Below are positions 1 through 15,976 of a DNA stretch of 64,000 bases, piece by piece (the stretch's first letter is position 1; every line of letters begins with the position of its first letter). The notes under the pieces were generated by a model that saw nothing but the letters and a program-made list of their open reading frames with translations, was not told the origin of the DNA and ran no database searches. The position numbers and the translations under genes are program-made. This DNA comes from Mariniflexile fucanivorans (GTDB taxonomy: Bacteria; Bacteroidota; Bacteroidia; Flavobacteriales; Flavobacteriaceae), in the NCBI RefSeq assembly GCF_004341235.1, contig NZ_SLUP01000002.1:124001-188000 (forward strand). Direction: 5' to 3'.

Positions 1-963
1 GCCATTTTCGAAATAATCGTATAATTTTTTCACATACTCTTTACGGTCTGGTTTGTGGTAAATGAAGAAAAAACGAACGTTGGGGTGTGGACTTGCTTTG
101 TATGGCCCCATTTTTTTCATACCTACTTTAGGGTCTATTTCGGTATTATTGAAGAACCTTAAATTATTTGATTTGTAATTCGTATGATGGATTTCTTTTT
201 CTGGAACGGTGAAAAACCCTTTTTCACTTAAAGGCAATACCTTTTTAAACGCTGCTGTATTTAAATAGTTGTTGTAAAAATCTGTTATGTGCTTGAAATA
301 GGGTTTGTAACGATTGCCTTTTTTAGGTATGCTATTTGGTATTTCGAGGTGGTTTTTAATAGGTATGTTTAGCAATGGAAATACCTGCTCTATATTTTGT
401 TTTGCTTCTTCTGAAAGCTGATTGAATTTGATTATTTCTTTTTTGTAAACTACTGTTTTAAAATAGTTAGAAGGGATATTTATTTTATCAATGCTTGTTG
501 TGGCTACTTTAGAAGTACCATCATACGATAGTAATAATGCTGGACTTTTTGTTAGCCCTGAAAATTCTATTTTTAAGGTATATTTATTATAGGTTTTATA
601 ACCTGTTGCCATTACTTTCGTATCTAAAAACCAAACTTCCGTATCTTTTACGTAATTGCATTTAATAGCATCGGCAATAGGCGTAAAATAATTATAAACT
701 AATTGGGTGTAGTAGTGTTTTGCAAAGGTTGTGTTTTGGTACATATCTACCTTAGCCAACATATCGCAGTTTTGGGTATCTAAAAAATTGGAATACAAGA
801 ATTTGAGGTCTTGCAACTCTGTTTTAAAATTATCCCATACCTCATTTGGCAACTGTGCTCTGTGAATAGGAAAAAACCCTTCTGTTTTATCTTTATAAAA
901 CCCAAATTCTTTAATTAATTCAGGATGTTTGAATGGTAGGATGTTAATTTTAAGATTTTCCAA
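1..963 (-). CDS. Argonaute-like (long pAgo) protein, 3' truncated by window edge
   Basis: An open frame of 321 codons runs from a TTG at 963 off the left edge. No ATG or GTG start lies upstream, because the frame is closed by a TAG inside the end of hsdR. The start region reads ENLKINILPFKHPEL, followed by GFYKDKTEGFFPIHR. The middle contains LLLSYDGTSKV. The end has LRFFNN then GMKKMGPYK, followed by a hydrophobic strand FFFIYHKP. The pattern of a basic GL/GM..GPY element followed by a beta strand is what I associate with the entry into the MID domain of long prokaryotic Argonautes, so the visible part would be N, PAZ-like and early MID. The PIWI catalytic domain lies outside the window, so activity cannot be judged. 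It starts 19 bp after hsdR on the same strand and is probably co-transcribed with it. The assignment is by pattern memory only; an unrelated nuclease or helper protein is the alternative. Confidence 0.6.
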   Translation of the reverse strand, partial: MENLKINILPFKHPELIKEFGFYKDKTEGFFPIHRAQLPNEVWDNFKTELQDLKFLYSNFLDTQNCDMLAKVDMYQNTTFAKHYYTQLVYNYFTPIADAIKCNYVKDTEVWFLDTKVMATGYKTYNKYTLKIEFSGLTKSPALLLSYDGTSKVATTSIDKINIPSNYFKTVVYKKEIIKFNQLSEEAKQNIEQVFPLLNIPIKNHLEIPNSIPKKGNRYKPYFKHITDFYNNYLNTAAFKKVLPLSEKGFFTVPEKEIHHTNYKSNNLRFFNNTEIDPKVGMKKMGPYKASPHPNVRFFFIYHKPDRKEYVKKLYDYFENG

Positions 964-982
964 AATATCACCGTTTAATAAT

Positions 983-3900
983 TTAATTTTCTCTAGAAAA
1001 CACGTCTGCTAAACTCTCACTTTGCGCAATTACTCTATCGGCTTGGATTCTTGCAATGTCTGGTGGATACCCATAACGCATTAATATTTTCTTTACAGCT
1101 AATCTTAAAGTGGCTCTAACATCGTCTCTTTTACTCCAATCTACAGTTGCATTTTTTCTTACTAAATCAACAATCGTATGAATTAGTTCTTTCATTTTAT
1201 CGTCTTGTAAGAAAGAAGTGGAATCGTTATCCTTTAAAACCGTATAAAAAGCATATTCTTCAGGTGTTAAACCTAAGTCATCTGATTTTTTATCTTCTAA
1301 TTGCATTTCTTTTGCAATCTCTGAAAGTTCTGCTAATACTTGTGCCGAATCGATTTGGTTGTTGTGGTAGCGTTTTACAACAGATTCTAACATTTCGGAG
1401 AACTTTTTACCTTGCACTAGGTTTTTTGTTTTACGCACTTTTACCTCATCACTTAACAATTTTTTAAGCAATTCAAACGCGAGGTTTTTTTGTTGCATGT
1501 TTTTTACTTCCAACAAAAACTCGTCTGATAAAATACTTACTGATGGTGCTTTTATTCCTGCAGCTTCAAAAATATCAATGACCCCATCGCTTGATAAGGC
1601 TTCGTCTACAATTTGTTTTATAGCTGTTTCTACTTCAAAATCAGACTTTACTCCATTGCTTGTGAATTTGTTTATTCTTGCTTTTACGGCTTGAAAAAAG
1701 GCAACCCCCTCTTTAATTTTATTGGCATCTGGACTTGGAATAGCCATTGCAAAAAGCTTTGACAATAAAGTCACTTCTTTTAAGAATCGTTCTTTTAATT
1801 TATCACTTGATAACATAAAGTTTTGCGCCCCTAATAGTATTTGTAATTTTTGTGCTGTTTCTGATTTAAAATAGGCTTTGAAGTCATAACCATTAAACAT
1901 TTGCTCTATCACTTCAAACTTCTCTTTCATTCCTGCAATGGCCTCTTTTATATCAAATATGGGTGTTCCTTCACCGCCACTTTGTAAATAGATTGCCATG
2001 GCATTTCTTAAATCTTGACCAATACCTATATAATCAACAATTAATCCGCCTGGTTTGTCTTTATATACACGGTTAACTCTTGCAATGGCTTGCATTAAGT
2101 TAGCCCCTTGCATTTTTTTATCAATGTACATGGTGTTTAAACTAGGAGCATCAAACCCCGTTAGCCACATATCTCTAACAATGACTAATTTTAGTTCATC
2201 ATTAGGGTCTTTCATTCTTGTTGCCAAATCTTTACGTTGCTTTTTTGTTGTATGGTGTGGTTGCAACAAAGCAATATCATCCGAAGCACTGGTCATAATC
2301 ACCTTTATTTTCCCTTTGTCTATATCGGAATTATGCCATTCGGGTTTTAACTCTATAATTTCTTGATATAATTTAGCGCATATCGTTCTCGTCATACCAA
2401 CAATCATTGCTTTGCCTTCAAACACTTCTTGTCTTTTTTCAAAGTGGTAAACAATATCTTTTGCAATGTCTTTTAATCGGTCTGGATGACCCACAACGGC
2501 ATCAATAGTCGCTACTTTTTGCTTGGATTTTTCTAATTGTTCTTCTGTAGCTCCAGAAATCGCATTAATTTCAGCATCAATCGTGGCTGTTGTGGCATCG
2601 TCTAATTTAATTTTTATTAAACGAGATTCATAACTTATAGGTACAGTTGCTCCATCATCTACGGCTTGTTTGATGTCGTAAACGTCTATATAATCGCCAA
2701 ATACTGCTGGTGTTGATTTGTCTTCTTTTTCTATGGGTGTTCCTGTAAAGCCTATATAAGACGCATTAGGTAAGGCGTCACGTAAATACTTCGCATTGCC
2801 ATACCGTGTTTCCATACCTTCCTCCGTTTCAACTTCTCGACCTTTAAAGCCATATTGACTACGGTGCGCTTCATCTGCCACTACAACAATATTTGTTCGC
2901 TCTGATAAGGTATCATACACATTGCCTGTTTCTGGTGAAAATTTTTGAATGGTAGTAAAAATGACACCGCCACCAGACACTTTTAATAATTCTTTGATGT
3001 GTTCTCTGTTTTCAGCTTGAATGGGTTTTTGACGTAACAAGCCAATACAATTACCAAAGGTTCCAAATAATTGGTCGTCTAAATCGTTACGGTCGGTTAG
3101 CATTACAATGGTTGGGTTTTCCATTAGTGGATGCGTAATTATTTGACCACTATAGAACACCATTGTTAATGATTTACCACTACCTTGTGTATGCCAAACA
3201 ACACCTGCTTTTCTGTCTCCATCGGTACTATGTGTTGCTCGTATGGTTTGTGCTACTGCTTTTTGTACTGCATAATACTGATGATAGGCCGCTACTTTTT
3301 TAACCTTGGTTTGAAAAATTAATCCTGTTTTGGCATCTTTTTTTTCTTCTGATTCAAAAACGGTACAATAGCGTATTAATTCTATTAATGTTTTTTTATC
3401 TAGCATGTACTTGGTTAAAATTTGCAAGTCTGTAGCACCATAATTTTGTGAAGGCTCTGCGGCCATAGCAAAATTTTCTTGGTTTGGTTCTGTTAGATAT
3501 TCTGCAGCAGTTGGAGCTTTCCATGAAAGATACCGACTTATAGGCGCCGAAATACTAGATGCTTTTGCATCTATACCATCGGAAATTACACATAGTGCAT
3601 TGTAATAAAAAATACTAGGAACTGCTTGTTTGTAGGTTTGTATTTGTTGAAATGCTTTTAAGACTGTTGCTTTTTCATCTGTGGCATTTTTTAATTCTAT
3701 AAAAACTAAGGGCAACCCATTTACATAGATTACGACATCAAAACGTTTTTCGGTATTATTTTCTTTAACCACTAATTGATTGACTACCCAAAAGCTATTG
3801 TTTTCAATATTTTGAGTATCTAATAAAGTAACCGGAATACCAATAGTGTTTTCCCCTTTTGTATATTCTACCGTAACGCCATTGGTTAGATAGTTATGGA

Positions 3901-4159
3901 AACGTTCGTTGTTTTCCATACTATCTTCTGTACCCAAATGGAGCACTTTTTGGTATGCTTCCACTCTTGCCGATTCTGGAATATTAGGATTTAGTTTTTT
4001 TAAACTTTCCTTAAACTGATTCTCTAAAATAACCGAAGCAAAGTTTTCTCTTTGGGGATTATCACTATATGGTGCTATATCAGGACCATAATAATAGGTA
4101 TAGCCTTGCTCTTGTAATTGCCCAATTAATGATTGTTCTATGTGGTTTTCATTAATCAT
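983..4159 (-). CDS. hsdR: Type I restriction enzyme, R (motor/nuclease) subunit HsdR
   Basis: This is the translocating and cutting subunit of a type I restriction-modification complex. The protein has 1058 residues, normal for HsdR. An N-terminal PD-(D/E)xK nuclease fold is visible at about residues 140-160, with an FDVVIYVNG strand followed by FIELKN. The superfamily 2 helicase motor follows: HTQGSGKS (Walker A), DEAHRSQYG (motif II), GFTGTP (motif III), LTGFDAPSLNTMYIDK and QAIARVNR (motif VI). It lies downstream of hsdM and hsdS, separated from hsdS by two small accessory genes and by a 187-bp spacer. The Argonaute-like gene follows after 19 bp. It appears intact. Confidence 0.96.
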   Translation of the reverse strand: MINENHIEQSLIGQLQEQGYTYYYGPDIAPYSDNPQRENFASVILENQFKESLKKLNPNIPESARVEAYQKVLHLGTEDSMENNERFHNYLTNGVTVEYTKGENTIGIPVTLLDTQNIENNSFWVVNQLVVKENNTEKRFDVVIYVNGLPLVFIELKNATDEKATVLKAFQQIQTYKQAVPSIFYYNALCVISDGIDAKASSISAPISRYLSWKAPTAAEYLTEPNQENFAMAAEPSQNYGATDLQILTKYMLDKKTLIELIRYCTVFESEEKKDAKTGLIFQTKVKKVAAYHQYYAVQKAVAQTIRATHSTDGDRKAGVVWHTQGSGKSLTMVFYSGQIITHPLMENPTIVMLTDRNDLDDQLFGTFGNCIGLLRQKPIQAENREHIKELLKVSGGGVIFTTIQKFSPETGNVYDTLSERTNIVVVADEAHRSQYGFKGREVETEEGMETRYGNAKYLRDALPNASYIGFTGTPIEKEDKSTPAVFGDYIDVYDIKQAVDDGATVPISYESRLIKIKLDDATTATIDAEINAISGATEEQLEKSKQKVATIDAVVGHPDRLKDIAKDIVYHFEKRQEVFEGKAMIVGMTRTICAKLYQEIIELKPEWHNSDIDKGKIKVIMTSASDDIALLQPHHTTKKQRKDLATRMKDPNDELKLVIVRDMWLTGFDAPSLNTMYIDKKMQGANLMQAIARVNRVYKDKPGGLIVDYIGIGQDLRNAMAIYLQSGGEGTPIFDIKEAIAGMKEKFEVIEQMFNGYDFKAYFKSETAQKLQILLGAQNFMLSSDKLKERFLKEVTLLSKLFAMAIPSPDANKIKEGVAFFQAVKARINKFTSNGVKSDFEVETAIKQIVDEALSSDGVIDIFEAAGIKAPSVSILSDEFLLEVKNMQQKNLAFELLKKLLSDEVKVRKTKNLVQGKKFSEMLESVVKRYHNNQIDSAQVLAELSEIAKEMQLEDKKSDDLGLTPEEYAFYTVLKDNDSTSFLQDDKMKELIHTIVDLVRKNATVDWSKRDDVRATLRLAVKKILMRYGYPPDIARIQADRVIAQSESLADVFSREN

Positions 4160-4346: not shown

Positions 4347-5381
4347 TCATTCTTCATCATTATCTTGTAATCGTTTTATTTCTTTATCAAAATCACTTTC
4401 AAATAACCGATCCTGAATTATTCTGTATTTTTCAAATTCAGTTTCGGCTTTTTCTTTGGCAATTTGTACTGATATTTTCCCACCATCTTGCAATATTTCT
4501 CTTTCGTCAAAAGCTAAAAATTGGTCTATTCTTGTTGCCCAATCTTGCATCGTCATTGGTATTTTTCGTTGTGCTCTGTTTTCTGCCAAATCTAAAAAAG
4601 CATTCACAATTTTGCCTAATGATTCTAACTCTTCTTTGTTTAAATAATTTTTGGCAATGGCAACATCTGTTTTGATGATTTTTCCTTCGGGTGCATTTTT
4701 CCAAGAGGTTAAACCCATTTTATCCTTGCTACTATCTACTCTTTTATAGATGAGTTCCGAGGCTGTATGCCCGTGAATAGCAAAATGAAGTTTGTTTTGC
4801 ACTTTTGCAAAAAAAGCTTTGGTGGAAACCGCATCTTTGTTGTAATCAAGACTTGTTGCGTAAATATCGGTTATTTTTTGATAAAATTTTCGTTCGCTTA
4901 ATCGAATTTCTCGAATTTCGGCAAGTAATTCTTCAAAATAATTTTCATTAAGAAAAGAACCGTTTTCTAATCTTTTTTTGTCTAAAACAAAACCTTTTAT
5001 AGCAAAATCTTTAAGGACTTTGGTTGCCCATTGCCTAAACTGGGTTGCTCTAATCGAGTTTACTCGATATCCAACAGAAATGATGGCATCTAAATTATAA
5101 AAGGCTACTTCTCTATTTACTTCTCGATTGCCTTCGGTTTGAACTATCCTGAATTTCCGGATAGTTGCCAATTCGGTTTGTTCTTTTTGGGTATAAATAT
5201 TTTTTAAATGTTCGTTTATGGTACGAACATCTACTTCAAAAAGCGTTGCCATTAACTTTTGGCTCAACCATATTGTTTCGTCTTCATAGCGTGCCTCGAT
5301 GCTGCTTTCGCCAGCTTGTGCGGTAAAAATCAAAAATTCGGTGGTGCTATTTCGTATCAATTTGTCTGAACTATGATTCAT
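4347..5381 (-). CDS. rhuM: RhuM-family protein (virulence_RhuM)
   Basis: Protein of 344 residues with the RhuM hallmarks: IWLSQKLMATLFEVDVRTI near the N-terminus (an HTH-like segment), then NLDAIISVGYRVNS and FRQWATKVLKDFA. RhuM was first named from a Salmonella pathogenicity island, but its biochemical role is not known. Homologues are often found inside type I R-M operons, as here between hsdS and hsdR. Its ATG overlaps the stop of the upstream GxxExxY gene (ATGA-type overlap), so the two are translationally coupled. After the TGA stop at 4347-4349 the same frame continues for 16 further codons (ending INAETAD) to a TAA at 4296, so the C-terminus may have been shortened by a nonsense mutation. 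Confidence 0.9.
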   Translation of the reverse strand: MNHSSDKLIRNSTTEFLIFTAQAGESSIEARYEDETIWLSQKLMATLFEVDVRTINEHLKNIYTQKEQTELATIRKFRIVQTEGNREVNREVAFYNLDAIISVGYRVNSIRATQFRQWATKVLKDFAIKGFVLDKKRLENGSFLNENYFEELLAEIREIRLSERKFYQKITDIYATSLDYNKDAVSTKAFFAKVQNKLHFAIHGHTASELIYKRVDSSKDKMGLTSWKNAPEGKIIKTDVAIAKNYLNKEELESLGKIVNAFLDLAENRAQRKIPMTMQDWATRIDQFLAFDEREILQDGGKISVQIAKEKAETEFEKYRIIQDRLFESDFDKEIKRLQDNDEE

Positions 5382-5797
5382 TTGATATTTGGATTTTCTT
5401 GATTTTTTTGGTTAAACTTCTTGTTATTGAGTCTTTTAAACTGCAATGATTTTGCTCCAAAATTAATTAACAAACCAATTTCTAAATCATAAGCTTCTAG
5501 ATAATTGATGGCTTGTGCCAAATGCACATCTTGCAATTCGATAATTGCTTTTAATTCTACCGAAATGGTGTCTTGAATTAAAAAATCTACTCTACGCAAA
5601 CCTATTTGATGATTTTTATAAAAAACAGGCATTTCGTGTTCTCTTGAATACGAAATGTCATTATTCCTAAATTCTATTTCTAATGCTCTCTGATAAATAA
5701 CTTCCTGAAAACCGTTACCCAATTGACGATGCACTTCCATAGCCAAGCCAATTATTTTGGAGGTTATATCAGAATATTTATAAGTTTCATCTATCAT
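5378..5797 (-). CDS. GxxExxY protein (small PD-(D/E)xK-like family)
   Basis: Protein of 139 residues with the family-defining motif at about residues 28-34, within LGNGFQEVIYQRALE, followed by VDFLIQDTISVELKA, which resembles the D...ExK core of PD-(D/E)xK nucleases. The family is widespread in Bacteroidota and common next to defence and mobile genes; its function is not established. It sits between hsdS (57-bp gap) and rhuM (4-bp overlap). The C-terminus is lysine- and asparagine-rich (NNKKFNQKNQENPNIK). Family membership is clear. Nuclease activity is only an inference from the fold-like motif. Confidence 0.9.
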   Translation of the reverse strand: MIDETYKYSDITSKIIGLAMEVHRQLGNGFQEVIYQRALEIEFRNNDISYSREHEMPVFYKNHQIGLRRVDFLIQDTISVELKAIIELQDVHLAQAINYLEAYDLEIGLLINFGAKSLQFKRLNNKKFNQKNQENPNIK

Positions 5798-5854: not shown

Positions 5855-7123
5855 TCATAGTTCAGACACCCTTACCTCACCACTCATTAACCGTGGTAAT
5901 AATTCATCACGGGTTTTGGTGAGGGTTTGGATTTGTTTGGTATTTGTTTGGTATTTTTGATAAATTGGTTTTATTAAATTACACCAATTATTAATGCTTT
6001 CTAAACTTGGAATTAATAATAATAAATTACTAAGCACGGTTAAACTTACATTTGCTTGTACACCTTGAACGATATTAGAAATTATTACATCTTGTGTTTC
6101 TTTACTTTTAAGCCACAAATGAATGTATTCAAGAAAACTATGTTTGTCTTTTAATCTTATAAAAGCTAAAGCTTGGTTGCAATTTGAATTATTCATTTCT
6201 AAATCAACAATTGCAATTCTTCCTATTGTGCCAGCAATTGAAAATAATACATCATCTGTTTCTAGTATTGATCTTTTTAATTGATTTTCGTGTATAATTT
6301 TTGGAATTAATTCTAAATTGTTTTTTAAAATTAATCCATCATTAGAAATATCTTTTACTTTTAAAAAGGGTACTTCTCCCCGTAAGCCAATTAAATCATT
6401 TTTTGTTGGAGTTGTTCCTTTTGAAATTTTTATAACCAAATCCCCCAACTTCCCAACTCTCCAACCATCCGGCAATTCATCCTCAATTTGATATTTTCCA
6501 AACCATTCTGCAAATATAGTTTGTGCTGTTTCTTCTAGGGTTTTGTTTTGGGCTTGTAGTAATTCTATTTTATTGTCAAAAGCGATTAGGATGTCGGCTA
6601 TGGATTTTTGTTCTGGTATTGTTGGTAATGTTATATTAATGTTTTGAACACCGTATATTGGTAACTTTTTTTGCACTGCACCCACAGTATTTTTGACAAT
6701 CTCATCTTGACCATTCTTTGATATTAAGAAATAATACAAATAAGAATGATCAACATTTTTTAAATCAACTAATTTGGTACAATTTTCCGTAAGACTTGCT
6801 TTATCTAACTCTCGATCTATTTGAGCAACTAAACCAACTGTGCCTACAATTGTAATTACTACATCATTTTCATTTACAATATATCTTGATATATGCTTAA
6901 AAATATCATCAGTTACATATTGAAGTTGGTTTTTGTTAATTTGATTACCATTGAAATCTGTAATTCTTATGTATGGATGATTAGTTTTATAATTAACCAA
7001 AGTCATTCCCTTTGGTAGTCTTTTACCTCCTTTTGGGTTACATATTTCACCCAAAGTTGTTTCAACCCATCCATCTGGTATACTTCGACTAGGCTCAGTA
7101 TAAATATTTTTTACTTCACTCAT
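5855..7123 (-). CDS. hsdS: Type I restriction-modification specificity subunit HsdS
   Basis: DNA-recognition subunit of the type I complex, 422 residues. It has the usual two target-recognition domains: the first begins near IPDGWVETTLGEI, the second near DELPDGWRVGKLGDL. A conserved helical spacer (PEQKSIADILIAFDNKIEL) separates them, and a second spacer follows at the end (LTKTRDELLPRLMSGEVRV). The duplicated W..x.LG(D/E)(I/L) starts are clear. Its start overlaps the hsdM stop by 4 bp, so expression is coupled. No inverted repeats or second hsdS copy for shuffling specificity were seen in this window. Confidence 0.95.
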   Translation of the reverse strand: MSEVKNIYTEPSRSIPDGWVETTLGEICNPKGGKRLPKGMTLVNYKTNHPYIRITDFNGNQINKNQLQYVTDDIFKHISRYIVNENDVVITIVGTVGLVAQIDRELDKASLTENCTKLVDLKNVDHSYLYYFLISKNGQDEIVKNTVGAVQKKLPIYGVQNINITLPTIPEQKSIADILIAFDNKIELLQAQNKTLEETAQTIFAEWFGKYQIEDELPDGWRVGKLGDLVIKISKGTTPTKNDLIGLRGEVPFLKVKDISNDGLILKNNLELIPKIIHENQLKRSILETDDVLFSIAGTIGRIAIVDLEMNNSNCNQALAFIRLKDKHSFLEYIHLWLKSKETQDVIISNIVQGVQANVSLTVLSNLLLLIPSLESINNWCNLIKPIYQKYQTNTKQIQTLTKTRDELLPRLMSGEVRVSEL

Positions 7124-8649
7124 AACGATAAACCAATTTTAGCCAGTTGTGTAGCAATTTCGTTATTCAGTGCTATTTCCTTATCCATTTGCTGTTTTAG
7201 GCTAGTGGTCAATGCTTCCATTTTAGTTTCAAAAGAAATACCATCGTCTTCTACCGCTTCAATACCTACATAACGTCCAGGAGTAAGTACGTGGTTGTGT
7301 TTTTCTATTTCTTCAATAGTTGCGGATTTGCAAAAACCTTTGATGTCTTGATAGGCAGATTGCTTCGTTTCACTCGCAATGACGTTACGCCAATTGTGGT
7401 AAGTATTTGTAATTAAGTCTATGTCTTCTTCTGCTAAATCACGGTGAACACGGTCTTTCATGAAGCCCAGTTCACTAGCGTCTATAAATAATACTTCTTT
7501 ACTGTGGTTGGCTTTTTCTCTACGTAAAAACCAAATACAAGCTGGTATTCCTGTATTGTAAAACAATTGTTTAGGTAATGCCACAATACATTCTATCAAA
7601 TCGTTTTCTATTAAGTTTTTACGAATTTCTCCTTCACCACTAGTATTCGAGCTCAAAGAACCATTAGATAAAACAGTTGCCATAACACCTCTTGGTGCTA
7701 AATGGTACAACATGTGCTGCATCCATCCGTAATTGGCATTACCGCTTGGTGGGGTTCCGTATTTCCAGCGTCCGTCTTCTTGTAAAATATCTATTCCCCA
7801 TTCGCTTTGGTTAAAGGGTGGGTTGGCTAATATATAATCGGCTTTTAAGTCAGGGTGTGCATCTTTTAAGAACGTACCTTCTGTATTCCAAACCACAAAC
7901 TTAGAGTTGATGTTTCGAATGGCAAGGTTCATTTTAGACAATTTCCAAGTGGTTTGGTTGCTTTCTTGTCCGTATACTGTAATGTCTTGAATGTTCCCTT
8001 GATGTTCGGTTACAAATTTCTCACTCATTACAAACATACCTCCAGAACCACAAGCAGGGTCATAGACTCTTCCTTTGTAGGGTTCAATCATTTCTACCAT
8101 CAATTTTACAATTGATTTTGGTGTGTAAAATTGACCTCCTTTTTTACCTTCAGCATTGGCAAACTCCCCTAAAAAGTATTCGTATACGCGACCAAAAAGG
8201 TCTTTAGAGTTTTCGTTTTCGGCTTGTAAATCTGTATTAGAAATTAAATCAATTAATTCTCCTAAAGCTGTTTTATCTAGATTCGCTTTACCATATACCT
8301 GAGGTAATACGTTTTTTAAATCTTTATTTTCACTTTCAATAGCTTGCATGGCTTCGTCAATGGTTTGCCCTACTGTTGGTAATTTTGCGTTTGCGTGAAT
8401 GTGATTCCAACGTGCTTCTTTAGGAACAAAAAACGTGTTTTTCGCTAGATATTCGTCTCTGTCTTCAGGGTCTGAATATTCGTCGGATTGTAATTCGTCG
8501 TATAATTCACCAAACGATTCCGAAATGTATTTTAAGAATATTAAACCTAATACAACATGTTTGTATTCGGCAGCATCTATATTTTTACGCAGTTTATCTG
8601 CTGATTTAAAGAGTTTTTGTTCAAAAGAGGAATTATCGGTTTTCGCCAT
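7120..8649 (-). CDS. hsdM: Type I restriction-modification methyltransferase subunit HsdM
   Basis: N6-adenine methyltransferase subunit, 509 residues. An N-terminal helical HsdM domain is followed by GQFYTP (about 172-177), the SAM-binding motif DPACGSGGMF (about 197-206) and the catalytic NPPF (276-279). It is the first gene of the R-M operon. Residues about 422-432 (NVIASETKQSA) are an in-frame copy of a dispersed repeat, placed between the TYHNWR helix and the conserved GFCKSAT...LTPGRYVG segment. The rest of the family pattern resumes directly after it, so the enzyme may tolerate the insertion. The 169-bp upstream gap should hold the operon promoter, but no perfect consensus was found. 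Confidence 0.95.
   Translation of the reverse strand: MAKTDNSSFEQKLFKSADKLRKNIDAAEYKHVVLGLIFLKYISESFGELYDELQSDEYSDPEDRDEYLAKNTFFVPKEARWNHIHANAKLPTVGQTIDEAMQAIESENKDLKNVLPQVYGKANLDKTALGELIDLISNTDLQAENENSKDLFGRVYEYFLGEFANAEGKKGGQFYTPKSIVKLMVEMIEPYKGRVYDPACGSGGMFVMSEKFVTEHQGNIQDITVYGQESNQTTWKLSKMNLAIRNINSKFVVWNTEGTFLKDAHPDLKADYILANPPFNQSEWGIDILQEDGRWKYGTPPSGNANYGWMQHMLYHLAPRGVMATVLSNGSLSSNTSGEGEIRKNLIENDLIECIVALPKQLFYNTGIPACIWFLRREKANHSKEVLFIDASELGFMKDRVHRDLAEEDIDLITNTYHNWRNVIASETKQSAYQDIKGFCKSATIEEIEKHNHVLTPGRYVGIEAVEDDGISFETKMEALTTSLKQQMDKEIALNNEIATQLAKIGLSL
7354..7386 (-). repeat. Dispersed 'VIASETKQS'-type repeat inside hsdM
   Basis: On the minus strand the sequence contains GTCATTGCGAGTGAAACG followed by AAGCAATCTGCC. 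Sequences of this type are widely dispersed in Bacteroidota and other genomes, and their in-frame translation gives the tell-tale VIASETKQS peptide. Here the copy encodes HsdM residues about 422-432 without breaking the frame. No second copy was noticed elsewhere in the window. Confidence 0.7.
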
Positions 8650-8818: not shown

Positions 8819-11101
8819 CTAGGTGCTTTCTGTTTTTTTATATACCCCATATTCAGGCTGTTGCAAGTACTTACCTAAACAACTTTTAAGAAAGGTTCCT
8901 ACTGTTCTTTCTGCCATATTAAAAGCACTTGCAAGTTCAACGGCTTCTTTTCTTGTGAATTGGTTGGGTAACGCATCAAAAAACCGTTTTTTATTTTGGC
9001 CAGATTTGAAAGGACCTTGTTCTTCATTTGTTTGTTTAGGCAGGTTTTCGAACATTAAAATATTGTGTTTTAAATAGACTTCTATGAGTTGCAGGGCTAT
9101 TTCGAAATCTTCGTCTAGACATTGTATATCTGTTCCCTGTTCTTGATTTTGGTATTTACGAATGGCCGTGAAAATCATGCATATTCTATACAATACGACC
9201 CCTAAGCGTTTTACGATACTTTGGGCATCTTCGGAAACAAAAGCACTAATTTGGTTTAGGTATTCACTGAACACGGGGTTGAATTTATCCCATTGTTCTC
9301 TTGATAAATGCACTGTTGTTTTACCGCTATCGAGAAACAACACCATTTCATACACTGCTATGGACAATTTTGCAAAATGGTCGGTTAAATTTACCCTTGA
9401 ACCAAAGGGAGAAGGATCTATCCATTTGCTGTTGGTTTTAAACACATAGAAAATAAACCGACTGAACAAACCATCTTCTGCCGAGGATATGATATTGTAT
9501 ACTTGTTGTGGCGTGCCTGAAAGTGCTACGGCTAATCGTGGATTGTTAATTTCGAAATATTCATTATTGGTTTTTCTTGAAATGGATATTTTTTCGTTGT
9601 GGAATGCTTTACGGAGTAAATCGGAATAAGAACCCCAATCGTTTTTGAAAACTTGCCCTAGGGTGTCGGCTTCGGTTTCGCAAATAATTCCAGAACCTTC
9701 ATTTTGTTGTAGGTGTTGAATAATTTTAGCATTGCTGGTATTGGCAGGAATGAATACGACCTTAAAAGGCGGTTCTTCAGGCATTTCTTCTTGATGGGTA
9801 TCCCCTTTCTTTTTAAATCTATTGGCGTGTTTAATGGCTTCTATTTTTTTGTCGTATTCCTTTTTTTGTTCTCTTGAATTTTTGAGGACTTCTTCGTGGT
9901 ATTTATCAGCTAACTCCTTAGATGATTGCAATGCCCCTTTGCCTGACGCCGCAGGTGCTAGAATGAAAGAAAACAGATGTGGGTACATCGTTCTGCCGCC
10001 GTATTCGCCTGTTACATTTGGTAAACAGCCAGACAAAACTGCTAAAGCACCTGTTAAGAATGTGTCTTTTTCTCTTGCCTCAGTAAATGCTTCTGCACCT
10101 TGTTTTAGAATGAGTGGTAAATTATTGTAAACCGATTGCGGAATTGTTGGCGTATTAAGAAGATAGTTTTCATCGTCTGTTGTTTCTTTTTTTTCTATGG
10201 GTTTCAATACCGCTTGCTGTATAGGTTTGCGGTTTGCAAAGTCGGCAAACTTTGCAAAGTCTGCAGCTTGGTTTTTGTAGGCACTTTGAACGGATGCTTT
10301 AATTTCTTTTTCGTTTAAATCGAAATTTGTGATGCAAAAGTCAAGTGTATCAGCTTCATTAATACCAAAACGGTTGGCATTAGATGCTAACAGATGCATA
10401 AAATTGTTTCTGTTTCCGTTGGCGTATTGTTCTTTTTGCTCTGTGAATTTTAGACATTTTTCCAATAAGGTGTCTGTGGATTCGAAACTTTGAGGTTCTA
10501 GTTTGTGTTCTTTTGGAAGCTGTTCTACTTCTTCTTGAATTTCAAACATTGTTGCCGATTCATTTAGATAAGTTTCTGGATCAAAAGAAACAAAACATAA
10601 TCGGGTAATGTCAATACATTTTGGGTCAAAATCGTACCCTGATAGATTTTTATAAAAATTAGCCACTTGATTGTATGCTGTTGTGTGTTGTGCTGCATTT
10701 GAATTGATTTTAATGAATACTTTAATTCCTTCGCCACTTGGGCTTATAAATGATGCAAACGTGTATTTACAATCGTTTACTAATGTGACCATTGTGTTGA
10801 GTTCTGTTACTGGAATGTGGTCGAAATCCAAACCTATAATTTGAGAATAGGATTTTATATTTGCTTTGGTTCTGCTTTTTCCAAACGTTCCAGACATCGT
10901 AAATGCTAGTAAACCACTTTTGATTTCATCAGCTACTTTTTCGTCACCTTTATGTATGGCATATCGGATAGAATTTATATCACTTTGGTATTTATCGGAT
11001 TTGATTTCTTGAAGTATTTCAATAAGACTTCTATCTTTTAACTTGGTCCCGAAATTTTGATACACGCTTACCACCAGCTTGTTGTTTACGACTTCGCTCA
11101 T
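8819..11101 (-). CDS. DUF3987 / BT4734-like (VirE N-domain) mobile-element protein
   Basis: Protein of 760 residues. The N-terminal third (VIGLDFDH-type IIGLDFDHIP, FASFISPSGEGIKVF, YDFDPKCIDITRLCFVSF) matches the BT4734/BF3469-like domain, related to primase-polymerase folds. The middle and C-terminal parts match DUF3987, including the loop LAPAASGKGALQSS, which resembles a P-loop. Proteins with this architecture are a standard component of Bacteroidota integrative elements and are thought to act in element replication or primase/helicase roles; activity is not demonstrated. It overlaps the upstream HTH gene by 4 bp, so it is the last gene of the mobility operon. Confidence 0.85.
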   Translation of the reverse strand: MSEVVNNKLVVSVYQNFGTKLKDRSLIEILQEIKSDKYQSDINSIRYAIHKGDEKVADEIKSGLLAFTMSGTFGKSRTKANIKSYSQIIGLDFDHIPVTELNTMVTLVNDCKYTFASFISPSGEGIKVFIKINSNAAQHTTAYNQVANFYKNLSGYDFDPKCIDITRLCFVSFDPETYLNESATMFEIQEEVEQLPKEHKLEPQSFESTDTLLEKCLKFTEQKEQYANGNRNNFMHLLASNANRFGINEADTLDFCITNFDLNEKEIKASVQSAYKNQAADFAKFADFANRKPIQQAVLKPIEKKETTDDENYLLNTPTIPQSVYNNLPLILKQGAEAFTEAREKDTFLTGALAVLSGCLPNVTGEYGGRTMYPHLFSFILAPAASGKGALQSSKELADKYHEEVLKNSREQKKEYDKKIEAIKHANRFKKKGDTHQEEMPEEPPFKVVFIPANTSNAKIIQHLQQNEGSGIICETEADTLGQVFKNDWGSYSDLLRKAFHNEKISISRKTNNEYFEINNPRLAVALSGTPQQVYNIISSAEDGLFSRFIFYVFKTNSKWIDPSPFGSRVNLTDHFAKLSIAVYEMVLFLDSGKTTVHLSREQWDKFNPVFSEYLNQISAFVSEDAQSIVKRLGVVLYRICMIFTAIRKYQNQEQGTDIQCLDEDFEIALQLIEVYLKHNILMFENLPKQTNEEQGPFKSGQNKKRFFDALPNQFTRKEAVELASAFNMAERTVGTFLKSCLGKYLQQPEYGVYKKTEST

Positions 11102-11376
11102 TTTTTCTTCGGTTTATAGTTATCGTTTAATAAGTCTTGAATGTCTTTTAGGCGGTAATAGATTTTATTGCCTAACTGACAATAACCAATAAATCCGCTA
11201 TCTCTCCAGGTTTGTGCTAATCGTTTGCTTATGTTCATTATTTGCATAAACTCTTGATTGTCGCAAAATAAATCGTCTGGGTGCATCTGCTGTTTTTCTT
11301 TGAGAATAACAGTGAGTTCTTTTAACTGCTCTTGGATTTCCTTGAACATTTTTTCTGTAGGTTCGTAGAATGGCAT
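11098..11376 (-). CDS. Helix-turn-helix (excisionase/MerR-like) DNA-binding protein
   Basis: Small protein of 92 residues. The N-terminal part is charged and helical. The HTH segment reads FMQIMNISKRLAQTWRDSG, followed by IYYRLKDIQDLLND, a winged-helix pattern of the helix_turn_helix_17/excisionase class found in Bacteroidota mobile elements. It overlaps the downstream DUF3987 gene (ATGA) and lies 3 bp after another HTH gene. The likely role is regulation of element genes or directing excision with the integrase; which of the two is not decidable here. Confidence 0.85.
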   Translation of the reverse strand: MPFYEPTEKMFKEIQEQLKELTVILKEKQQMHPDDLFCDNQEFMQIMNISKRLAQTWRDSGFIGYCQLGNKIYYRLKDIQDLLNDNYKPKKK

Positions 11377-11379
11377 GGC

Positions 11380-11682
11380 TTACTTTCTTTTATGAGTTAG
11401 TAAATAGTTTGCTGCCATGGTTTCGATTTCGTCGGTAGGCGTTTGACGATTGCGTTGCAGCCATTCGTCTAATTCTGTACGATTGAAATAGAGTTTTTTA
11501 CCTTGTGGACAGAAATGCGGAATTGATTTCTGACTGGTTAATTTGTAGAGGTGTGATGCGCTTATGTCTAAATAATTACAGGCATCATTGAAGTTTAGCA
11601 CTTCTTTCATTAAGAGGTTTTGTGCCTCTATTTTTTGCTCAAGTTTATCGAGCTTTTCTAAAATTAAAATTTCGTTACTCAT
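11380..11682 (-). CDS. Helix-turn-helix (excisionase-family) protein
   Basis: Protein of 100 residues with a predicted N-terminal coiled segment (EKLDKLEQKIEAQN) and an excisionase-type winged HTH: ACNYLDISASHLYKLTSQ followed by IPHFCPQGKKLYFNRTEL and DEWL. This SHLYKLTS..IP......Y F.R.EL..WL pattern is typical of element-encoded HTH_17 proteins in Bacteroidota. It heads the HTH-HTH-DUF3987 operon. About 120 bp of AT-rich DNA separates it from the unknown gene upstream and could carry the promoter. Confidence 0.88.
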   Translation of the reverse strand: MSNEILILEKLDKLEQKIEAQNLLMKEVLNFNDACNYLDISASHLYKLTSQKSIPHFCPQGKKLYFNRTELDEWLQRNRQTPTDEIETMAANYLLTHKRK

Positions 11683-11801: not shown

Positions 11802-12872
11802 TTATAGTTGTTTAATTATGTTATCTATAATATCTTGTTCTTTAGGAAAGTTGTTTTTGTTTTTATATAGATTGTTACGATTAAGCACTGTTCCTTTTTT
11901 AGAGTAAAATAAATTGGATTGTTCTATGGACGTAGGGTTAAAATTACTGAAATGGTATCCTAATTTATTAACTATATAACTGAATTGTGTTGTTTCGCAG
12001 CCTAAATGAATTTGTGGTGCACCAAGTTTTAAATCTTTACTTGTTAAAACACTTAATAAGTTTTCAATTGTTGTTTTGTCTTCATTCAGAAGCTCAATAT
12101 TTCTGTTCAAAGCAGTTATGACTGTTTTTAATTTAATTGCATCTCCATTGAACACGAATGATAATCGGGTATCTTTTTCAAGTTTAAAACTGTCATTCCC
12201 TAAAAGGATGTTATTCACTGTTTGAAATTCAGGTGTTGTTTTTTCAATATCTATGTCTGGAATTGGTTGTTGTAGTAGTTCGCCGTATAACTCGTTTTTG
12301 TTTGACGGTAGTTCTGAAAGGAATTGAGGATATAATTTTTCGGTTTCTTTCAGCAATCGAATTACGTTGGTAATTAATTGAGGTATTACATAATCTGTTA
12401 ATTCTGTTTTAGGAAATTTTTCTTTATCCGACCCGATACAGAACAAGATGTGTTTGCATGATTTAACAAGGTTTTGGATCATTTCTTTTTTTTGAATTTC
12501 TCCAATGTCTTTATTAATACATTCGAAAATTCTATTTGTTAATCGTGTTGTCTCATTTTTTAAAAGGAAGTGATAAAACTTTTGTGTTGTTGTAATTGGT
12601 TCTATTAACGACGTTTCAACTAATGGATATAGTATTTCATGATTTGTACCGTTGTTTTTCTGCTGCAAATAGATTTCTAAGCCATCTTCTTTGAATAAGT
12701 TAGGTTTGCTATTAAGAAGCTCTTTTAATGCATTATAATACTCGTTTATATTATGTGCTGGCTTCATAAAGTTTGATGATAAATTTTGTCTGTAAAATTT
12801 ATCATTAACAGCATTACTTGCCCAGGGTTTCAACTCTCCGTAGATAACACTTTTAAAAATAGTTAATTCCAT
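11802..12872 (-). CDS. Unknown protein translationally coupled to the integrase
   Basis: Protein of about 356 residues if started at the ATG at 12872, which sits one base after the integrase stop (TAA-T-ATG). A longer reading up to 12923 would overlap the integrase and is less likely. No catalytic motif, signal peptide or membrane segment is evident. The C-terminal 60 residues (APQIHLGCETTQFSYIVNK, then YHFSNFNP and TVLNRNNLYKN) look like the compact domain seen at the ends of several integrase-adjacent proteins in Bacteroidota. It may belong to a DUF6617-like group, but I am not sure. Its position suggests a role in element biology or cargo. Confidence 0.75.
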   Translation of the reverse strand: MELTIFKSVIYGELKPWASNAVNDKFYRQNLSSNFMKPAHNINEYYNALKELLNSKPNLFKEDGLEIYLQQKNNGTNHEILYPLVETSLIEPITTTQKFYHFLLKNETTRLTNRIFECINKDIGEIQKKEMIQNLVKSCKHILFCIGSDKEKFPKTELTDYVIPQLITNVIRLLKETEKLYPQFLSELPSNKNELYGELLQQPIPDIDIEKTTPEFQTVNNILLGNDSFKLEKDTRLSFVFNGDAIKLKTVITALNRNIELLNEDKTTIENLLSVLTSKDLKLGAPQIHLGCETTQFSYIVNKLGYHFSNFNPTSIEQSNLFYSKKGTVLNRNNLYKNKNNFPKEQDIIDNIIKQL

Positions 12873-12873
12873 A

Positions 12874-13980
12874 TTATAAATCGAGTTTGATTCTATTGGC
12901 TGCTTCCATTTTCTTTTCGTCAATTATTTTGGCATATACTTGTGTGGTTCTAATGTCTTTATGGCCTAATAATTTTGATACCGTAAATATATCAGTTCCC
13001 AATGTTAATTGCAACGTTGCATAAGTATGACGCGCGCAATGAAATGTAATCGTTTTGCTAATGCCCCCTTTCATTACCCATTGTTGTAATTTTAGATTAT
13101 GCCATGCACTGTACTTTAAACCTTTAAAAACTCTTTCTTCCGGTTCTCCTATCTCCTTTAATAAATCACGTGCTTGGTCTGACATTGGCAAAGTTTCTGC
13201 TCCTTTGGTTTTCTTTTGTCTGAAACGAATATACCACCCATAATCATTAGAATGTTGTATTTCCGACCAAACAAGCTTGTTTATATCTGACCATCTTAAA
13301 CCCGTTAAACAACTGAAAATAAAAGCTGTTTTTAGAATTGGAATTTCACATTCGTTTTTTATGATGCTTTGCAATTCTTCTAATGTTAGAAACTCTCTTT
13401 CGCTATCGCCCTGTGGTAAACATTCTACTTGTTCTGCTGGGTTGGAACGCATGATACCATCTTTAACAGCTTGTTTTAAAGCTGCACGAAATTTATTGAA
13501 ATAAGAGTGCGCCGAATTATCAGATAGGTTCTTACCACTTGGAGTTTTGGCGGTTTTTGTTAGGTAATCTTTGAAACCCTCAACAAACCTACTGTCTATT
13601 TGTGAAAATGAAATATCCTTTGGACAATACTTTCTTAAATGCTTGATGCTGCTATCCCAATTGCCATAATTACCTTTGCTTTCTAGTCGTTTTTCCGCTA
13701 AAGTTTCCATATAGATAATAAAAAAGCCTTTTAACTTTTCTTGGTCATTGAAATTGTATAATCCGTTCTGAATTTCTAAATGTCTTTTAGAACGAATACT
13801 TTCAGCAAGATTAAAAATTTTACTGTTTTCGTCTTTTTCGGCTTTAGTTAGTTTTCCTTTTTCAGGTTCTGGCATGAGATATAAACCTAAATATTCATAT
13901 TCTCGCTTACCATTTTTATAGTAATCCAGATACAAACTGATTTTGTTGCCTTTCTGTCTTTGTCTTAATGTAACTTTCAT
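12874..13980 (-). CDS. Tyrosine-type site-specific integrase
   Basis: Recombinase of 368 residues with the usual three parts: an N-terminal arm-binding region (SLYLDYYKNGKREYEYLGL), a SAM-like core-binding domain (about 100-190) and a C-terminal catalytic domain. Catalytic residues are visible: Arg in TGLRWSDI, His-x-x-Arg in HCARHTYATL, His in LLGHKDIRTTQ and the nucleophile Tyr in VYAKI. It lies about 600 bp from the mnmE 3' end with only one small HTH gene between, as expected for an integrase near its att site. It appears complete and potentially active. Confidence 0.95.
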   Translation of the reverse strand: MKVTLRQRQKGNKISLYLDYYKNGKREYEYLGLYLMPEPEKGKLTKAEKDENSKIFNLAESIRSKRHLEIQNGLYNFNDQEKLKGFFIIYMETLAEKRLESKGNYGNWDSSIKHLRKYCPKDISFSQIDSRFVEGFKDYLTKTAKTPSGKNLSDNSAHSYFNKFRAALKQAVKDGIMRSNPAEQVECLPQGDSEREFLTLEELQSIIKNECEIPILKTAFIFSCLTGLRWSDINKLVWSEIQHSNDYGWYIRFRQKKTKGAETLPMSDQARDLLKEIGEPEERVFKGLKYSAWHNLKLQQWVMKGGISKTITFHCARHTYATLQLTLGTDIFTVSKLLGHKDIRTTQVYAKIIDEKKMEAANRIKLDL

Positions 13981-13987
13981 AATACCA

Positions 13988-14359
13988 TCAATTAAAAAGT
14001 TTATCTATTTGTGCTCGTTGAATTATTTTCTTTCTTCCAAACTTGTGTATTTGTAGTTCTCCTCGTTTTATCATTCTGTTTATAGTCCATCGACTAACAC
14101 CAATTAATTCAGCAGTGTCTTGAATAGATAAAAAGTTTTTTGAAATTAAAGAGTTGGTGTTTGCTAATTGCAAAGTTTGCTGACTTTGCATTGCCTGCTG
14201 TTGCTCAATTAAGGAGGTTTGTATTTTGGCTTCTTTTATCTTTTGCTTGTAATGTCGAGAATTACACTTATGGCAACAATATTTGGTTAAAGTGGTCTTA
14301 GCTATAAAAGCCTTACCACAGTAAGAACAGGTTTTTGGAATTGCCATATTGCTACTCAT
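13988..14359 (-). CDS. Zinc-finger / HTH excisionase-like protein
   Basis: Protein of 123 residues. The N-terminus has a CSYCGKAF...YCCHKCNSRHYKQK module with paired cysteines that should bind zinc. A glutamine-rich linker follows, then an excisionase-type HTH (SIQDTAELIGVSRWTINRMI) with the wing LQIHKFGRKKIIQRAQI. It is the gene closest to the att site and lies 7 bp before the integrase, so the two form an operon. Its start codon (14359) adjoins the 10-bp repeat array, which could be its own binding site. An alternative start is the Met at residue 5. Confidence 0.88.
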   Translation of the reverse strand: MSSNMAIPKTCSYCGKAFIAKTTLTKYCCHKCNSRHYKQKIKEAKIQTSLIEQQQAMQSQQTLQLANTNSLISKNFLSIQDTAELIGVSRWTINRMIKRGELQIHKFGRKKIIQRAQIDKLFN

Positions 14360-14578: not shown

Positions 14579-14596
14579 TTACTTTCCGATACAGAA
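14579..14596 (-). other. Putative attachment site in the mnmE 3' end
   Basis: The last 18 bases of mnmE read TTCTGTATCGGAAAGTAA on the minus strand. This is nearly the same as the trmE/mnmE 3' sequence used as attB by SGI1-type islands, because it encodes the conserved C-terminal FCIGK. The island genes begin immediately beyond it. The partner att copy was not found in the window and should lie left of position 1, unless the weak match at 8699 is one. Confidence 0.6.
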
Positions 14597-15976
14597 ATTC
14601 GCAAAAATATTACCCAATAAATCATCGCTTGTAATTTCTCCAGTAATTTCACCGAAATAGTATAATGCTTGCCGAATATCAATCGCTAACAAATCGCCCG
14701 ACAAACCTGTTTCTAAACCATGTTTTACTTTTTCAATTTCTTCTAAAGCTTTCAATAACGAATCGTAATGCCTTGAATTAGTTACAATTGTATCATTATT
14801 TCTTAATGCACCTGTATTTACAAAACTTAAAAGTTTTTCTTTCAAAGTATCTACTCCAATTCCTTTTTTAGCAGATAACAAATGGATATTAGGGATATCG
14901 GTTTCAAGAAATTTTATGTGCTTGTCATCCAATTTATCAACTTTATTAGCAACAATTAATAAAGGTTTTAATGGATACTTATTCTTTATTTTTTCTATTT
15001 CTATTTTAAAAGTATGAACAAACGATTCATCTTTAAAATTAGTACTATCCGCCAGAAAAACAACAACCTGTGCCTGATCAATTTTTTCAAAAGTTTTTTT
15101 AATTCCAATACTTTCTACAACATCTTTGGTTTCACGAATACCAGCTGTATCAATAAATCTAAAACCAATGCCTCCAATAGAAATTTCGTCTTCAATAGTG
15201 TCTCTTGTTGTTCCTGCAATGTGTGATACAATGGCGCGTTCTTCATTTAAAAGCGCATTTAAAAGCGTTGATTTTCCTACATTTGGTTCGCCCACAATAG
15301 CAACAGGAATCCCGTTTTTAATCACATTACCAACAGCAAACGAATCTATCAAACGTTTCAAAACAAAACTGATGCGTTCTACTAAATCTTTAAACTGGGT
15401 TCTATCGGCAAATTCTACATCCTCTTCTGCAAAATCTAATTCCAATTCTATTAAAGATGCAAAATTTAAAAGTTCTTCACGAAGTTTAGCTATTTCAGAT
15501 GAAAAACCACCACGCATTTGTTGCATCGCTATTTGATGTGACGCTTCATTATCTGAAGATATTAAATCGGCAACAGCTTCTGCCTGACTTAAATCTAACT
15601 TTCCATTTAAAAAAGCTCGCAATGTAAATTCACCTGCGGTTGCCATTCGGCATCCTTTCCGAAGAAATAATTGTATAATTTCCTGCTGAATATAATTAGA
15701 GCCATGACATGACACTTCAACCACATCTTCACCTGTATAAGAATTCGGGTTTTTAAATACAGAAACCAAAACCTCATCAATAATTTTATTTTCATCCATA
15801 ACATGACCTAAATGTATGGTATGTGTTTTTTGAAGGTTAAGCGTCTTTTGGTTTTTTACCGATTTAAAACAAGTATCTGCTATTACAATCGCATCTTTTC
15901 CTGATAAGCGAATAACGGCAATGGCACCGGCACCCGATGGTGTTGCTAGTGCTACTATGGTGTCTTGATGTATCAT
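14579..15976 (-). CDS. mnmE: tRNA modification GTPase MnmE (TrmE)
   Basis: With MnmG this GTPase installs the aminomethyl-type modification on U34 of certain tRNAs. The protein has 465 residues, normal length. The N-terminal formyl-THF-binding domain starts MIHQDTIVALATPSGAGAI. The inserted G domain shows GEPNVGKSTLL (G1), IAGTTRDTIED (G2), DTAGIRET (G3) and NKVDK (G4). The C-terminus ends FCIGK, holding the essential cysteine of the CxGK motif. Because the stop codon lies inside the putative att site, integration preserved the reading frame and C-terminus. No mnmG is present in the window. Confidence 0.97.
   Translation of the reverse strand: MIHQDTIVALATPSGAGAIAVIRLSGKDAIVIADTCFKSVKNQKTLNLQKTHTIHLGHVMDENKIIDEVLVSVFKNPNSYTGEDVVEVSCHGSNYIQQEIIQLFLRKGCRMATAGEFTLRAFLNGKLDLSQAEAVADLISSDNEASHQIAMQQMRGGFSSEIAKLREELLNFASLIELELDFAEEDVEFADRTQFKDLVERISFVLKRLIDSFAVGNVIKNGIPVAIVGEPNVGKSTLLNALLNEERAIVSHIAGTTRDTIEDEISIGGIGFRFIDTAGIRETKDVVESIGIKKTFEKIDQAQVVVFLADSTNFKDESFVHTFKIEIEKIKNKYPLKPLLIVANKVDKLDDKHIKFLETDIPNIHLLSAKKGIGVDTLKEKLLSFVNTGALRNNDTIVTNSRHYDSLLKALEEIEKVKHGLETGLSGDLLAIDIRQALYYFGEITGEITSDDLLGNIFANFCIGK

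Follow-up and report, generated by a model that had tools for sequence, protein, structure and literature searches.

Gene content of the locus

The stretch analysed here, referred to below as the window, spans 64,000 nucleotides of a Mariniflexile fucanivorans contig (C2). Its left edge cuts a gene read on the minus strand, upstream of which lie a type I restriction-modification (R-M) operon, a series of genes with counterparts in related loci, a tyrosine integrase and the host gene mnmE (window positions, unless C2 is named):

1..963, minus strand: 5' part of the Argonaute gene, 321 of 676 codons (profile matches, open frame, alignment)
983..4159, minus strand: hsdR, type I restriction subunit, slot 1 cargo (Pfam HSDR_N, SWI2_SNF2, T1R_D3-like, T1RH-like_C)
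4347..5381, minus strand: RhuM-family gene, slot 1 cargo (PF13310, E=2.2e-112)
5378..5797, minus strand: PDDEXK_3 gene, slot 1 cargo (PF13366, E=7.8e-38)
5855..7123, minus strand: hsdS, specificity subunit, slot 1 cargo (PF01420, two Methylase_S stretches)
7120..8649, minus strand: hsdM, methyltransferase subunit, slot 1 cargo (PF02384 and PF12161)
8819..11101, minus strand: BT4734-like_N/DUF3987 protein, backbone (PF08800, E=1.7e-28; PF13148, E=9.8e-63; PADLOC VirE- and PrimPol-type models)
11098..11376, minus strand: HTH1, backbone HTH_17 protein (PF12728, E=5.4e-07; homologues in the same place in relatives)
11380..11682, minus strand: HTH2, backbone HTH_17 protein (PF12728, E=3.8e-13; homologues in the same place in relatives)
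11802..12923, minus strand: DUF6617 backbone protein (PF20322, E=7.4e-29)
12874..13980, minus strand: tyrosine integrase of the element (PF00589, PF13102, PF17293)
13988..14359, minus strand: small HTH_17 protein between mnmE and the integrase (PF12728, E=6.5e-09; homologues adjoin mnmE in relatives)
14579..14594, minus strand: att repeat at the integrase end, the last 16 bases of mnmE (1 mismatch to TTGTATCGGRAAGTRA)
14579..15976, minus strand: mnmE (trmE), host gene and integration site (PF10396, E=1.4e-43; PF12631, E=1.5e-53)
C2:118350-118365, outside the window: far att repeat (3 mismatches in 16)

The type I operon is complete, with HsdM, HsdS and HsdR all recognised by Pfam, and accommodates the PDDEXK_3 gene, which we take to be of the GxxExxY type, together with the RhuM gene between hsdS and hsdR. 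An integrative element encloses it, with the integrase and the mnmE target at 12.9-16.0 kb of the window. The RhuM gene within the operon (4347-5381), for which the best PADLOC model is PDC-S05, has counterparts in slot 1, i.e. the space between the backbone genes and the Argonaute, of two related loci (L009 and G200).

The Argonaute and its predicted activity

The original prediction described a 321-codon frame, which starts with TTG 19 bp past hsdR and is cut by the window edge, as an Argonaute located immediately after a complete type I R-M operon. This description holds in full: the minus strand is open from 963 to 1, the hsdR stop lies at window position 983 and both genes share a strand. 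Leftward extension places the remaining codons at C2:122933-124000 and yields a complete gene (G000:C2:122933-124963, minus strand) of 676 aa with no internal stops, which matches Pfam Piwi PF02171 with 51.6 bits (E=1.1e-13; cut-off 28.9 bits) and, over residues 1-676, the PADLOC pAgo model PDLC02385 (E=8.6e-275). Of the N, PAZ-like and MID features read from the partial frame, the MID part is thereby confirmed as MID-PIWI, and the uninterrupted length and the profile matches rule out a chance open frame. The TTG start is supported because the alignments of relatives begin at the same N-terminal residues, their start codons being mostly ATG and in some cases GTG or TTG.

The nearest solved relatives of the Argonaute are AF1318 (AfAgo), a chain named EcAgo, and the PDB entries 5awh, 6d8a and 6d95, which are labelled 'Uncharacterized protein' and which we take to be RsAgo; AfAgo and RsAgo are presumably long-B pAgos. 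EcAgo is likewise a long-B pAgo in the part of Song et al., 2023 drawn on here (PMC10620215). Judged by these closest solved relatives, rather than by a full pAgo tree, the protein classifies as long-B-type. A structure model built from 7 sequences had a mean pLDDT of 49, too poor for PAZ* or fold comparison.

In an alignment of 26 Argonautes, in which the query shares 36-79% identity with the others, the residues Y391, K395, Q406 and K432 never vary (26/26) and line up with Y, K, Q and K in the RsAgo entries, the MID residues that hold the guide 5' end. Within PIWI, E526 is invariant and D560 is conserved in at least 90% of the sequences; no Asp anywhere in the protein is invariant across the 26. 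The presumed place of the first catalytic Asp is occupied by Gly in the query, as in the EcAgo and RsAgo entries. The expectation of a cutting Argonaute with a DEDX tetrad is accordingly not supported, nor, on the same alignment, is a catalytically active long-A pAgo. As far as these residues can tell, the protein is probably catalytically dead; with the guide-pocket residues invariant and no invariant Asp, it should bind guide and target, and guided binding without cleavage is expected.

Integrative elements at the 3' end of mnmE

We collected 36 Argonaute loci: the query, nine on GTDB contigs, 15 more from a class sample (Argonaute match in 16/395 genomes, own included), 10 more from an order sample (12/395) and one at the mnmE gene of the congener G782. 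Where the backbone is in view, they show a characteristic order, namely small HTH, integrase, DUF6617, two HTH proteins, VirE_N/DUF3987, usually an Xre gene, slot 1, Argonaute, slot 2 and a far att repeat. The BT4734-like_N/DUF3987 protein is probably the replication primase/helicase of the element. An ORF matching the Xre gene is present in 17 of the 28 loci examined and absent from the query element. The backbone lies upstream of the Argonaute on the same strand in 25/35 loci, and later also in L010 and G782, with the qualification that not every small backbone gene was recognised in each of the 25 and that L005, L007, L008 and L011 were initially counted without integrase. Counts over 25 loci given below leave out ten of the 35 (L004, L006, L010, L012, G393, G138, G388, G002, G733 and G287), where the backbone falls outside the stretch covered, and precede the addition of G782.

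The host gene mnmE adjoins the element in 24/36 loci, and in 23 of them (the query with 15 others, L005, L007, L008, L009, L010, L011 and G782) a site-specific tyrosine integrase was read between mnmE and the Argonaute. The 24th, G388 (L040), has the order mnmE, 180-aa gene, Argonaute, with integrase and primase absent, and is decayed or rearranged. Four loci (G131, G133, G278, G099) combine the backbone with another kind of integrase, with no mnmE in the stretch read. Eight (L004, L006, L012, G393, G138, G002, G733, G287) are indeterminate, fragmentary, decayed or distant; among them, G733 has a 5'-truncated Argonaute with no backbone (L072:15585-16946), and G393 and G138 have the mnmE-integrase end and the Argonaute on separate contigs, both cut near contig ends, so that a single element is likely rather than shown in each. 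Searches for other vehicles returned no Argonaute relative in IMG/VR contigs by a pattern scan that reaches close relatives only, and just 11 plasmid records, at 17-26% identity and none covering 80%; neither a phage origin nor a plasmid-borne family finds support in these results.

The terminal bases of mnmE, TTGTATCGGRAAGTRA, are repeated downstream of the Argonaute, and the att core of the element family reads TTGTATCGG. Among the 14 of 24 mnmE loci with long downstream stretches, the core recurs downstream of the Argonaute with at most one mismatch in 7/14 and at most two in 10/14. Reverse-complement and reversed patterns gave 0, and 200 shuffles gave means of 0.01 (at most one mismatch) and 0.57 (at most two) loci, with maxima of 1 and 5; as the pattern was derived from a k-mer search of the same loci, the test is not independent of them. 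The context of the repeat is convincing in 8 of the 10 loci, G567 and G597 being without the context found elsewhere. No convincing far att was found in the stretches read of G445 and G749, and those of G709, G567 and G597 are likewise unconvincing; G709 has a 3-mismatch site, comparable to that of the query, in a context resembling G635. At the level of these matches, the element is flanked by att-like direct repeats in most loci tested.

The query's own far att rests on about 20 bases of context common with the perfect site of G194, and on this reading its element measures about 20.2 kb (C2:118350-138594, window -5650 to 14594). An exact-repeat search of the own contig with the mnmE flanks returned no clear match, and a 20-base pattern allowing up to 3 mismatches found, in the own genome, mnmE and one site in an unrelated ORF that we took as chance. 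The gene beyond the own far att, sought as a marker of an empty site, was found in 0/30 relatives at E<=1e-60, so that no empty site came to light. In G194 (L105/L041) two perfect att cores lie at +24523 and +30797 from the mnmE stop, the second preceded by an apparent displaced mnmE 3' end, which suggests tandem elements in that genome.

Exchange of cargo around the Argonaute

Slot 1 contains R-M genes in 19/25 loci (21/27 with L010 and G782), of the following kinds:

HsdM-/HsdR-like genes: query, L007, L008, G004, G133, G158, G267 and G060 (8 loci; outside the query, by phmmer against the window proteins)
N6-methylase genes with HSDR_N_2 domain: L005, G099
hsdR with Abi_2 and RhuM: L009
type III-like genes: L011, G131, G278, G200
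methyltransferases with an AAA_5 gene, which we read as McrB-like: G194, G443
AlwI-type: G567
type IIG-like: G635
later additions: Eco57I-type methylase in L010; N6-methylase and specificity genes in G782

The underlying Pfam scan covered the slots apart from the large gene before the ResIII gene in G131 and one gene each in G133, G267 and G060. No R-M was recognised in slot 1 of G562, G399 and G445, each with a small Xre gene only, or of G709, G597 and G749. The slot-1 genes share the strand of the Argonaute in 25/25 loci and end close to it (median gap 14 bp; 25 bp or less in 19/25), which makes co-transcription with the Argonaute likely. Slot 2 has RND efflux, GmrSD, AraC-type and other genes that differ between loci; the next two genes downstream of the query Argonaute have no PADLOC match and no match above the Pfam cut-off. 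On the same side, at L002:10821-11624 (C2:118821-119624), lies a member of a 267-aa family with no Pfam match; it has two paralogues in the own genome (35-37% identity), and similar ORFs recur, by eye, 3' of the Argonaute in many loci.

Pairs of closely related elements were compared at the DNA level. In G060 and G567 an identity of 93% extends from near mnmE into the Xre gene and resumes over the Argonaute, covering bases 0 to 2097 of 2100; in L005 and L009 an identity of 94% likewise reaches into the Xre gene and resumes over the Argonaute, here at bases 1-2028 of 2028. Elsewhere, both pairs have only pieces of 40-156 bases in common. Thus, Argonautes that are 96-97% identical stand beside unlike cargo, type I in G060 vs AlwI-type in G567, and methyltransferase, specificity and ATPase genes in L005 vs RhuM, Abi_2 and hsdR in L009. 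In the other two near-identical pairs the picture is less clean: L007 and L008 have a common Argonaute stretch (-1 to 2039, at 98%) but related type I genes, and G158 and G267 also have the last slot gene in common. By these alignments, exchange is clean on both sides of the Argonaute in two of the four pairs.

These counts bear directly on the combined defence unit of R-M and Argonaute that had been suggested for the window. As a specific pair it is not sustained: hsdR immediately precedes the Argonaute in 4/25 backbone loci, which leaves a conserved hsdR-Argonaute pair unsupported, and in place of always the same R-M genes we find varied types in 19/25 slots and none recognised in 6/25. What survives is a weaker link to R-M in general (19/25), which could itself mean functional cooperation with the Argonaute.

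Co-divergence, selection and distribution

Across 22 mnmE elements, Argonaute distances correlate with those of the integrase (r=0.613) and of DUF3987 (r=0.665), in both cases with 0/2000 permutations as high; the correlation with host MnmE is r=0.259 (15/2000), a weak host signal. Without five close copies (n=17), r is 0.404 for the integrase (1/2000), 0.521 for DUF3987 (0) and 0.06 for MnmE (522). The test supersedes an earlier one on 16 loci (integrase 0.705, DUF3987 0.659, MnmE 0.144). When the four loci with another integrase are included (21 loci), the correlation with the integrase is only r=0.237 (2/2000). The wider distance test comprised 28 Argonautes, without L004, L006, L012, G002, G388, G287 and G733, and the longer piece of split DUF3987 genes was used throughout. 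For the type I subunits the relationship is different: Argonaute vs HsdR gives r=0.125 (n=10; 450/2000 permutations as high) and vs HsdM r=0.318 (n=10; 74/2000), whereas DUF3987 in the HsdR and HsdM sets (9 and 10 loci) reaches r=0.781 and 0.789 against the Argonaute. Judged by these distances, the divergence of the Argonaute is matched much more closely by the backbone genes than by host MnmE or HsdR. A fixed hsdR-Argonaute pair is left unsupported by this divergence of HsdR, unrelated to that of the Argonaute, together with the adjacency in 4/25 loci.

For the Argonaute, dN/dS ranges from 0.03 to 0.12 across 8 pairs, with dS >1 in the three most distant, values that indicate purifying selection. 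In the class sample, own genome excluded, 8 of the 10 genomes with a close integrase (>500 bits, a limit chosen after the list was seen) hold the Argonaute, vs 7/384 others (Fisher p=2e-11); two of the eight, G393 and G138, hold it on another contig. At E<=1e-100 for the integrase, the Argonaute is present in 9/17 other genomes, that of G133 being in another place. The remaining two of the ten lack it: the element of G075 has the backbone, with the Argonaute missing from the whole genome, and that of G038 is cut by its contig end.

Relationship to previously described systems

The closest comparisons are provided by other long-B pAgos. The BPAN, BPAS and BPAM systems, in which a long-B pAgo is combined with a nuclease, Sir2 or membrane effector, have the same long-B type and inactive PIWI, and the EcAgo chain among the closest solved relatives is, we assume, the EcAgo of BPAN. 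RsAgo has the same guide 5'-end residues and, in the alignment, Gly at the first catalytic place; we know of no integrative element with exchangeable R-M cargo that has it in its backbone. Among mobile elements, the NBU-type elements of Bacteroides encode an integrase, small regulators and a primase one after another, as in the element described here, whereas the Argonaute and the two cargo slots are features of the latter. To our knowledge, there is no Argonaute backbone gene in SGI1-type trmE/mnmE islands. SGI1 and other such islands, in the portion of the source considered, are equally integrated at the 3' end of trmE/mnmE, but they are gammaproteobacterial and mobilised by IncA/IncC plasmids (PMC8409611). 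The BPAN-type systems differ in that, in the sections of their description consulted, a fixed effector lies downstream of the pAgo (PMC10620215), whereas here the neighbours of the Argonaute change.

The query family is probably the og_54 VirE N-terminal-linked subclade of long-B pAgos (PMC10620215, Song et al., 2023, for the subclade; PMC6299218, Ryazansky et al., 2018, for the orthogroup), an identification made at group level: the features in common are a long-B-type sequence, the lack of a conserved catalytic Asp and a VirE_N-type gene nearby. The relevant passages of both papers describe operon partners, and no integrase, mnmE site, att repeats or pair of cargo slots. Song et al. separate the VirE_N-linked long-B subclade and, in the text considered, leave its function open (PMC10620215). 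Among the orthogroups that Ryazansky et al. report for pAgo operons are, in the corresponding section, those of HsdS, type III restriction and RND, the role of RND being unknown (PMC6299218). Earlier, pAgo neighbourhoods were found enriched in combined defence-gene sets including R-M, with a link to mobilome genes absent (p=0.63), as stated in the part of Makarova et al., 2009 used here (PMC2743648).

The open-access literature, mostly titles and abstract openings, with preprints and most subscription journals outside its scope, gave no description of an Argonaute element at mnmE. Already known, then, are the Argonaute group and the kind of element, the R-M enrichment near pAgos and, in print, the VirE_N-linked subclade; new is the arrangement and, possibly, an account of old pAgo associations. 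Associations that were published and left open (VirE_N, RND efflux, R-M) can be the backbone and cargo of one element, and neighbour statistics around pAgos can mislead because the partner found in one genome gives way to another elsewhere. The link between pAgos and the mobilome is strong in this group, vs none in the corresponding passage of the 2009 study (PMC2743648).

Functional interpretation

We consider it likely that the Argonaute, a long-B-type protein that is probably catalytically dead, is a backbone gene of Bacteroidota integrative elements at the 3' end of mnmE, with the type I R-M system as an interchangeable partner. The restriction system of the window appears, from the slot comparisons, to be an exchangeable passenger, in which case the R-M/Argonaute pair would not be a fixed defence machine. 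From the features of the protein and its surroundings we infer how it might act on targets. It would be transcribed as the last gene of whichever slot-1 operon is present, load short 5'-phosphate guides and, so loaded, bind matching invader DNA (phage, plasmid or rival element) with no cutting; damage to the invader would then be done by other nucleases, of the host, the R-M system or other cargo. The type I system of the window would protect in parallel, and may supply fragments as guides or cut marked DNA; it is unlikely to be required because slots without recognised R-M exist. We entertain more tentatively, as a conjecture, that an Argonaute unable to cut forms the constant core of a mobile element, where it would serve as a universal, guide-programmed means of finding targets for any restriction or nuclease cargo in the slots beside it. 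If this were true, the element would re-arm itself by exchanging cassettes while its sensor stays the same. Some near-identical elements differ in their R-M genes or have none, and these offer a natural test of the dead Argonaute's dependence on R-M.

The Argonaute might instead be taken to form one machine with the complete type I operon, which ends 19 bp before it and shares its strand, the R-M system producing fragments as guides or targets, or HsdR serving as effector of the dead Argonaute. R-M of some kind in 19/25 slots, plus L010 and G782, is compatible with this, as are, within the portions of the literature cited, the R-M enrichment near pAgos (PMC2743648) and the presence of HsdS and type III restriction among the orthogroups of pAgo operons (PMC6299218). 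Nevertheless, we regard it as very unlikely, given that six of the 25 slots have no recognised R-M, three of them (G562, G399, G445) being Xre-only, that hsdR is adjacent in only 4/25, that 96-97% identical Argonautes stand beside different cargo (G060/G567, L005/L009) and that the Argonaute does not co-diverge with HsdR.

An Argonaute that has no link to R-M need not have a role in the element either: it could be a stand-alone defence protein kept here by chance, one among the many kinds of defence genes found in the same slots and at the mnmE site of congeners, and missing from one known element (G075). Such a plain passenger is unlikely, since the Argonaute stays in place while the genes on both sides change, co-diverges with the integrase and replication genes, and is present in 8/10 genomes with a close integrase. 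This very constancy with the backbone, together with co-divergence with HTH2, HTH1 and DUF3987, would fit a role in the life cycle of the element, for example control of copy number or exclusion of a second mnmE element, with VirE_N/DUF3987 as the working partner; the tie of a long-B subclade to VirE_N proteins, unexplained in the part of the publication considered (PMC10620215), points the same way. The element of G075 does without an Argonaute, however, and four relatives have other integrases, which renders a life-cycle role rather doubtful. The backbone Argonaute with interchangeable cargo is the reading that we retain.

The mnmE 3' side in related genomes

At mnmE, none of G780, G781, G782, G783, G784 and G789 shows the left flank of the query element; in G781 and G789 (same family) no element was recognised among the genes that follow mnmE. 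In the congener G782 a related element with its own Argonaute follows mnmE. Type I genes lie 3' of mnmE in G780 (HsdM and HsdR; L127), and other large ORFs in G783 and G784. Integrases next to mnmE also form a second group (360-393 bits; L097, L098 and L101), in which the backbones are different and the stretches read contain no Argonaute. Judging by the congeners, the 3' side of mnmE looks like a defence hotspot in the genus. In G784 (L126, 2873-7343) a 1117-aa Cas9-like protein (RuvC_III, HNH_4) lies 3' of mnmE, and the same locus also carries a 261-aa gene that resembles, by eye, the 267-aa family found downstream of the Argonaute.
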